Origin: Luteitalea sp.
GTDB lineage: Bacteria > Acidobacteriota > Vicinamibacteria > Vicinamibacterales > Vicinamibacteraceae
Reading direction: 5' to 3'
DNA: 64,000 nt
Assembly: GCA_009377495.1 (NCBI GenBank)
Contig: WHTZ01000008.1
Span: forward strand, 1 to 64,000
Of this stretch, positions 18,983-20,320 are shown piece by piece; position 1 is the stretch's first letter, and each line of letters starts with the position of its first letter. Below the pieces are notes generated by a model. It saw nothing but the letters and a program-made list of their open reading frames with translations, made no database searches and was not told the origin of the DNA. Made by a program: the position numbers and the translations under genes.

Positions 18983-19345
18983 TCAGGGCTGCTCCCCGGT
19001 GAGCCGGAGGCGAGCGATCACGCCCACGATGCGATCCCAGTTCTCGACTTCACGTGCCAGTTGCCGGCGGCCCGCGTTGGTGATCGCGTAGAACTTGGCC
19101 TTCCGGTTGTTCTCGGAGGCACCCCAGCTCGCCGAGATCCAGCGGTGATGCTGAAGCCGCATGAGCGACGCGTACACGGTGCCCTCGTTCAACCGCAGGA
19201 TGTCGTCGCTGATCTGCTCGATGCGCCGGGCGATCCCGTATCCGTGCTGCGGCCCCAGGCTGTCGAGCGTCTGGAGCACCATCAAGTCGAGGGTGCCTTG
19301 CAGCACGTCCAGGCGTGTCGAGGAGGTTGTCGTATCTTTGGTCAC
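18983..19345 (-). CDS. PadR family transcriptional regulator of the ADOP permease
   Basis: A 120-residue PadR protein: LDVLQGTLDLMVLQTLDSLGP then HGYGIARRIEQISDD, a wing (RWISASWGASENNRKAKFYAI) and a basic amphipathic helix. It sits immediately upstream of the ADOP gene with one base between stop and start, the standard PadR-ADOP cassette. The GTG at 19345 is chosen because it lies eight bases after a TATTCT -10 box; an earlier GTG at 19369 would lie between the -35 and -10 boxes and so outside the transcript. It probably represses its own operon through the palindrome at 19365-19391. Confidence 0.8.
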   Translation of the reverse strand: MTKDTTTSSTRLDVLQGTLDLMVLQTLDSLGPQHGYGIARRIEQISDDILRLNEGTVYASLMRLQHHRWISASWGASENNRKAKFYAITNAGRRQLAREVENWDRIVGVIARLRLTGEQP

Positions 19346-19353
19346 TGCAAAGG

Positions 19354-19391
19354 AGAATACCAACCACACCTTTGCGATGTCAATAGGTGTG
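19354..19391 (-). promoter_or_regulatory. PadR-ADOP operon promoter with palindromic operator
   Basis: On the minus strand TTGACA (19383-19378) and TATTCT (19359-19354) are 18 bp apart. A perfect 7-bp inverted repeat, CACACCT (19365-19371) and AGGTGTG (19385-19391), flanks the -35 box. A regulator bound there would block RNA polymerase, which fits PadR autoregulation. The boxes and dyad are read directly; the regulator assignment is inference. Confidence 0.6.
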
Positions 19392-19601
19392 CTTCAGCGG
19401 GGTGCTTAACGGAAATGGGGGTCGCGAGATCTGGAGGGTCGGAAAAAGGGGACAGGCCCCTTTTTCGAGAACCAACGCCGACGAAAAAGGGGCCTGTCCC
19501 CTTTTTCTCAGCCGGCGACGCCGTCCGCCGTCGCTGTCAGTGGGGCCTACAACGACGTACCCGGCCGCGACCCCCAGAACCGTTAAGCACCCGCTTCAGC
19601 G
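19391..19601. mobile_element. MITE-like element of 193 bp with 9-bp target duplication and nested hairpins
   Basis: GCTTCAGCG occurs at 19391-19399 and 19593-19601 as a 9-bp direct repeat. Between them (19400-19592) are 27-bp terminal inverted repeats starting GGGTGCTTAACGG, with three mismatches. The centre carries two exact inverted 25-bp copies of a palindrome (19442-19466 and 19483-19507) built on AAAAAGGGG and CCCCTTTTT. There is no transposase gene, so it is a non-autonomous element. The family of the helper transposase is not known to me. The nested hairpins could also terminate transcripts in both directions. Confidence 0.75.
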
Positions 19602-19621: not shown

Positions 19622-19650
19622 TTGACGTGCGCGCAGCCCCGAGTCATATT
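19622..19650 (+). promoter_or_regulatory. Promoter of the VapBC-like module, leaderless type
   Basis: TTGACG (19622-19627) and CATATT (19645-19650) are 17 bp apart. Six bases (ACTTCT) separate the -10 box from the ATG at 19657, so the antitoxin mRNA would begin at its start codon. It begins just outside the MITE-like element. Confidence 0.5.
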
Positions 19651-19656
19651 ACTTCT

Positions 19657-19887
19657 ATGGCACTCGCACGAATGAAGGCGACCACGATCGCCCTCGACCC
19701 GGAGGTGGACCAGCTGCTCACGCGAGCCGCGCGCGAGCGCGGCGTTTCGCGGGCGGAGTTCATCCGCCAGCAGCTCGCCCTGGTGCTGGAGCAGTACCGT
19801 CGCCATCCCAAGCCGCGAAGCGCGGGCATTATCCGATCGTTGTCCGAGCGCGGCGACGAGCGCGAGCTGTTCGGTGGCCGTCGGTAA
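19657..19887 (+). CDS. Ribbon-helix-helix antitoxin, VapB-like
   Basis: A 76-residue protein. The N-terminal half (MKATTIALDPEVDQLLTRAARERG, then VSRAEFIRQQLALVLEQ) is a classic ribbon-helix-helix DNA-binding fold. The basic, flexible C-terminus (about 50-76) would wrap the toxin. It overlaps the downstream PIN-domain toxin gene by 14 bp, indicating coupled translation. It should repress its own promoter together with the toxin. An in-frame extension upstream to 19387 runs through the MITE-like element and is not credible. Confidence 0.8.
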   Translation: MALARMKATTIALDPEVDQLLTRAARERGVSRAEFIRQQLALVLEQYRRHPKPRSAGIIRSLSERGDERELFGGRR

Positions 19888-20320
19888 CACGGCGGCGTTG
19901 ATCTGCGATACGGGAGCGCTCCTCGACTACCTCGTTGAAAGCGCGCCGGACCATCGGCGCTTTCGGGACGCCATCGGGCAGGCGCGCACGCGCTACGTTC
20001 CAGGCCTGGTCCTGGCGGAGGTGGACTACTTCCTGCGCAACGAGCGGTCAGCCATGAAGGTGTTCATGGATGACGTCGCGCGCGGGGCATTCACCTACGC
20101 GCCCCCCGCCCTCGATCAACTCTCGCGGGCCATGGAAATCGACCGGCGCTACGCGGATCTCGGCCTTGGCCTCGTGGATGCGTCTGTCGTGGCGCTCGCC
20201 GAAGACCTCGGCATCCGCCGCCTTGCGACGCGAGACGTCCGGCACTTCGCGGCCGTCCGGCTGCGCGATGGCAGCGCGTTCGAGCTGGTTGTTCACCCGA
20301 CGGACCCGGACCAATCCTGA
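19874..20320 (+). CDS. PIN-domain toxin, VapC-like ribonuclease
   Basis: A 148-residue PIN-domain protein. The acidic metal-binding set is visible: Asp12 in ICDTGALLDYL, Glu49 in VLAEVDYFL, Asp102 in GLVDASVVALAE and Asp121 in LATRDVRHF. VapC toxins are Mg-dependent endoribonucleases that cut tRNA or rRNA; the target here is unknown. The GTG at 19874 lies inside the end of the antitoxin gene. All four acidic residues are kept, so the toxin is probably active. The module stands directly beside the MITE-like element. Confidence 0.85.
   Translation: MAVGNTAALICDTGALLDYLVESAPDHRRFRDAIGQARTRYVPGLVLAEVDYFLRNERSAMKVFMDDVARGAFTYAPPALDQLSRAMEIDRRYADLGLGLVDASVVALAEDLGIRRLATRDVRHFAAVRLRDGSAFELVVHPTDPDQS

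Follow-up and report, generated by a model that had tools for sequence, protein, structure and literature searches.

Insertion sequences that choose promoters as targets are known from TnGBS and related elements, whose reported insertion sites lie 15-17 nt upstream of the -35 region of sigma-A promoters (PMC3942029). Target duplications of 8-9 bp are recorded for TnGBS/ISKra4-type transposases, some ISKra4 elements have the same promoter preference as TnGBS, and ISKra4 elements with nearly perfectly complementary ends have promoters on both sides (PMC3942029). REP dimers lie within longer palindromes in other bacteria, GTAG-15 of A. variabilis and CGTC-1 of H. neapolitanus, and according to the part of PMC3733652 that treats them, versions of the enclosing palindrome free of REPs were not found in these two genomes. 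The locus described here was found in a window of 64,000 nucleotides at the start of contig WHTZ01000008.1 of Luteitalea sp., where a MITE with ends like those of ISKra4-family elements encloses a REP doublet. In the MITE, RAYT-linked REPs and a DDE transposon, repeat classes whose chemistries of movement are unrelated, form a single unit whose copies land at a set distance upstream of promoters. ISKra4-derived MITEs appear to be little described, because among the papers searched the four that name both ISKra4 and MITE are, judged by title, about other subjects.

Sequence analysis of the window delimits an element between two identical 9-bp direct repeats. Its inverted ends match at 89% of their positions, and the tip GGGTGCTTAACGG is exact at both ends with no further occurrence elsewhere in the window. 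The two arms in the center are 100% complementary to each other and each contains a 10+5+10 palindrome, GAAAAAGGGG-ACAGG-CCCCTTTTTC. On either strand the element folds with a z-score of about -11 to -12. Rfam and a plasmid collection gave no match for the element, and a literature search with the tip sequence returned unrelated papers only. A sequence-only reading of this DNA had described a 193-bp MITE with a 9-bp duplication, 27-bp terminal inverted repeats with three mismatches and two inverted copies of a 25-bp palindrome in the center; the coordinates, length and duplication are correct to the base, and the repeats and palindromes are as it described them.

The element lies between a padR regulator gene and a CopG/PIN toxin-antitoxin module in gene calls that are heuristic. 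The padR promoter region is conserved without the MITE in another genome (G002). Orthologues of CopG/PIN are present in G039, G027, G017 and G018, and the CopG antitoxin orthologue of G017 has similar sequence upstream. The padR and CopG/PIN blocks were not found side by side in the relatives examined, and none of these supplied an exact empty site.

Coordinates of the MITE, its parts and the adjoining genes in the window
Feature	Position	Strand	Basis
padR regulator gene	18983..19369	-	PF03551 E=2.8e-19
padR promoter TTGACA-18-TATTCT, with its -35 box and the left MITE end 16 nt apart	19354..19383	-	consensus scan
Left 9-bp target site duplication GCTTCAGCG	19391..19399	.	sequence and copy comparison
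193-bp MITE with ISKra4-type end structure	19400..19592	.	~31 complete genomic copies; ends match ISKra4-family IS
Left terminal inverted repeat GGGTGCTTAACGGAAATGGGGGTCGCG	19400..19426	+	
REP doublet, two inverted 26-nt arms (19442-19467 and 19482-19507) with a 14-nt spacer, each arm GAAAAAGGGG-NNNNN-CCCCTTTTTC	19442..19507	.	free copies, relatives, RAYT-flanking variants
REP palindrome 1	19442..19466	.	
REP palindrome 2, inverted copy	19483..19507	.	
Frame GAYNDVPGRDPQNR*, which appears to be left over from the end of a parent-IS accessory ORF (C-terminus), stop codon inside the terminal repeat	19542..19586	+	
Right terminal inverted repeat GGGTGCTTAACGGTTCTGGGGGTCGCG	19566..19592	-	
Right 9-bp target site duplication GCTTCAGCG	19593..19601	.	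sequence and copy comparison
CopG/PIN module promoter TTGACG-17-CATATT, 29 nt from the right end of the MITE	19622..19650	+	consensus scan
CopG/RHH antitoxin gene	19657..19887	+	PF01402
PIN-domain (VapC-like) toxin gene	19874..20320	+	PF01850

The source genome (6.5 Mb, 97 contigs) contains about 31 complete copies of the MITE, a few fragments and 12 contig-edge copies, in which the contig end breaks off approximately 50 bp inside the element. In a BLAST of the element against its own genome, about 11 copies were full-length, at 96-98% identity, and a 155-bp form accounted for about 20 others. The 13-bp tip, allowing at most one mismatch, occurs 82 times in the genome versus 4 times for a reversed-pattern control. 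The BLAST copies, this tip count and the folding z-score show that the repeat family is not a product of chance. The left arm and the REP pair are common to the two main forms of 193 and 155 bp, which have different right arms, and further forms measure 133, 171 and 172 bp. Perfect 9-bp duplications border 15 of the 31 complete copies and duplications with one mismatch border 7 more, so that 22/31 match at 8-9 positions, with a different sequence at each site. Three pairs of contig-edge copies also carry a common duplication. A clear duplication is absent at the expected place in the other 9/31; in two of these a 9-bp repeat lies farther outward, by 10 bp and by 27 bp. The 193/155-bp elements are a real mobile family of short, non-coding, multicopy units with terminal inverted repeats and target site duplications. 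The earlier assignment as a MITE with a 9-bp duplication is right, and the element has many copies.

The insertion sites have a defined relationship to promoters. In the source genome, 21 of 74 flanks contain a -35 box with a correctly spaced -10 box at a distance of 15-17 nt to the junction. Other offsets have a mean of 0.09 -35 boxes with a maximum of 1, and Markov-resampled flanks have 0.15 with a maximum of 2. These counts come from a simple consensus scan for sigma-70-type promoters that misses weak ones, and a promoter is scored at 15-17 nt in only 15 of the 31 complete copies (20/31 at a looser cut). The two ends, A and B, face the promoter at a ratio of 11:10. Elements with the same ends in other genomes give 8 matches at 15-17 nt in 41 flanks; most of these elements have no such palindromes, yet the offset is the same. 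Six free REP doublets that were checked do not show this offset. The window MITE lies exactly 16 nt from the TTGACA of padR, a position that is explained by an ISKra4-type choice of targets about 16 nt upstream of a -35 box. TnGBS and ISLre2 (p-MULT 3) resemble the MITE in their 8-9-bp duplications and their insertion 15-17 nt upstream of sigma-A promoters (PMC3942029), but they have differing ends and insert in one orientation, whereas the ends of the MITE face promoters equally.

Elements with the same tip and 8-9-bp duplications are present in a few other acidobacterial genomes. One such genome (G574) carries a 2,050-bp insertion sequence, L264 (contig C47, 657-2706), with the ends GGGTGCTTAACTGTTTTGGGG / CCCCAAAACGGTTAAACACCC around its transposase ORFs; L198 in G574 likewise has ends in common with the MITE. 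The transposase ORFs of L264 match the ISKra4 model NF033572 with E=1e-54 and 5e-17 over complementary parts of the model. This copy may itself be inactive, because the transposase is split over two overlapping frames and there is no matching duplication. The end of the MITE matches the end of L264 over about 21 nt. A 143-aa accessory ORF of L264 ends in PAEAYNMIPGRDPQNS* at the terminal repeat, the right arm of the MITE reads GAYNDVPGRDPQNR* in the same position, and related tails occur in G336 and G411. The right arm thus looks like the tail of the accessory gene of this insertion sequence, which suggests that the MITE arose from it or a relative by internal deletion, although the homology extends over no more than about 16 residues. 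With ISKra4-family insertion sequences (p-MULT 4; NF033572; PMC3942029) the MITE has in common similar terminal repeats, 9-bp duplications, insertion about 16 nt upstream of -35 boxes with either end toward the promoter, and the apparently homologous accessory-ORF tail. It differs from that family in its length of 193 bp, its lack of a transposase and the REP doublet that replaces the coding region.

An origin in another family, such as ISLre2 or ISH6, with convergent ISKra4-type ends in G574, is very unlikely. ISLre2 also combines 8-9-bp duplications with a preference for sites upstream of promoters (PMC3942029) and the G574 transposase gives matches to both ISLre2 and ISH6, but these are far weaker than the match to the ISKra4 model (E=1e-14 versus 1e-54), the end sequence matches over about 21 nt, and the right arm has the same accessory-ORF tail.

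Searches by terminal-repeat pattern or right-arm sequence found no ORF-bearing parent in 396 genomes of the phylum or in the family and order, and no long element bounded by the terminal repeats is assembled in the source genome according to BLAST and a tip-pattern search, by which no ISKra4 transposase was seen there either. A parent with ORFs was found on searching the class of the Blastocatellia genome. The copy count and the search for full-length insertion-sequence relatives that had been proposed as checks both gave positive answers, with about 31 complete copies in the source genome and L264 and L198 in G574. DUF222/HNH genes beside sequence resembling the terminal repeat (C97 of the source genome; C109 of G001) were considered as autonomous partners and rejected because no second end matches there and the ends are accounted for by the ISKra4 element. 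A possible relic of the 3' end of the insertion sequence, L081 (source genome, C97:5130-5178), has an ABC permease gene on one side and a DUF222/HNH gene on the other, with 83% identity over 49 nt and the frame REAYNKMPGCAPQIR.

Two other contigs end in or carry the same terminal repeat. L211 (4030-4539) / L266 (IMGVR_UViG_3300032160_001285), on a contig classed as viral, ends in the repeat and is followed by a frame in which a resemblance to the G574 transposase N-terminus is visible by eye; this frame had no match in NCBIfam. L130 (1-98 of JAERMM010000325.1, labelled Chloroflexi) is a contig edge with the accessory-ORF tail and the terminal repeat, which suggests either a related insertion sequence in that genome or a misbinned contig.

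The 66-bp REP doublet is present in all complete MITE copies and also stands without the MITE ends at six or more sites in the source genome. The same doublet occupies many sites in the sister species G001, the only other genome of the genus searched, which is without the MITE and where the doublets lack its ends. Several additional genomes of the order give weaker matches. The single Y1_Tnp (RAYT) gene of the source genome, at C41:20293, scores above the cut-off of PF01797 and reaches 61.7 bits with NF047646, under the cut-off of 80. It is flanked on both sides by palindromes of the same pattern, AAAAAGGGG-NCAGG-CCCCTTTT. The MITE center is a REP doublet, with the inverted palindrome pairs, free copies and RAYT gene flanked by variants that characterize REP/BIME sequences. 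It differs from other REP/BIME doublets in its enclosure by DDE-transposon ends with target duplications. The bases at the palindrome foot vary from copy to copy, and no consistent GTAG or CGTC tag was seen among them. The copies, their duplications, the free doublets and the variants flanking the RAYT gene bear out the earlier suggestion that a REP hairpin pair is enclosed by a pair of transposon ends.

One RAYT with related REPs in the genome and a REP doublet in every complete copy could also mean that the RAYT moves the whole unit and that the outer ends belong to an extended REP/BIME, making the element a REPIN variant rather than an IS-derived MITE. This is extremely improbable, since DDE transposition is typically marked by 9-bp duplications and 27-bp ends such as these, other genomes have the same ends without these REPs, the ends also bound an ISKra4 transposase, and the doublets of G001 occur without the ends. 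GTAG-15 and CGTC-1 likewise have a REP dimer centered in a larger multicopy inverted repeat, but the enclosing palindrome is not tied to an insertion-sequence family, a duplication or a promoter offset in the part of PMC3733652 that treats them. In a Candidatus Solibacter MAG (G410), same-ended MITEs (L129, L134, L132) enclose a different, unrelated REP pair, which also stands alone at many sites in that genome. REP capture by the MITE of G410 was apparently independent of that in the source genome.

These features make it very probable that the MITE is a non-autonomous descendant of an ISKra4-family insertion sequence, moved in trans to promoter targets, with an accessory-gene leftover in its right arm and the REP doublet as a passenger. 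The two 27-bp ends would be the recognition sites of an ISKra4-type DDE transposase, which we infer mobilizes the MITE in trans and duplicates 9 bp of the target. At sigma-70 promoters the transposase would insert the element about 16 nt upstream of the -35 box. The near symmetry of the ends would allow either orientation, and the target of the window copy would have been the padR promoter. The right arm would derive from the 3' end of the accessory gene. In the presumed order of events, a REP doublet of the family tied to the genome's RAYT entered an ancestral MITE copy, which has multiplied it ever since as a passenger and spread it to new places.

Any effect of the MITE on neighboring genes is conjectural. 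The element is unlikely to be chiefly a mobile insulator, kept as a family because its REP hairpins, as bidirectional terminators, protect the adjoining promoter from upstream transcription. Each palindrome is built like a two-way terminator, with an A-tract, GC-stem and T-tract, the element folds very stably and the copies lie just upstream of promoters, but the choice of targets by the transposase already explains this placement, and same-ended elements elsewhere, most without such palindromes, keep the same offset. A terminator scan with its own consensus definition found no site. Neither neighboring promoter in the window transcribes through the MITE because both point away from it, and since no transcript from either enters the element, insulation between them by termination is not needed to explain its position. 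The proposal of the sequence-only reading that the MITE insulates the padR promoter from the toxin-antitoxin promoter is not supported for the same reasons. Flanking genes are divergent in 11 of 28 cases and convergent in 2, and divergent gaps make up 38% of the intergenic bases in the window; the orientation classes roughly follow intergenic length. It is likewise doubtful that REP doublets benefit promoter-targeting ISKra4 MITEs as portable terminators 16 nt upstream of promoters. If they did, such elements would be mobile promoter-proximal insulators, a class with at least two separate origins, in the source genome and in the Solibacter MAG with different REPs. The copies provide a large natural set of insertions for testing site choice by promoter-targeting transposases and what an inserted hairpin pair does to a promoter.

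Sequence variants occur among the copies of the source genome. In L095 (C7:80963-81133) and L096 (C66:109240-109394) the 14-bp spacer of the REP doublet has the opposite orientation with respect to the left arm, as expected from inversion across perfect inverted arms. L016 (C24:16853-17007), L012 (C67:19193) and L093 (C19:16997) have a common extension of 9-10 bp, GGCTACGCC(C), past an altered right tip. The 9-bp duplication of L016 lies outside this extension, which suggests that an alternative end was used.
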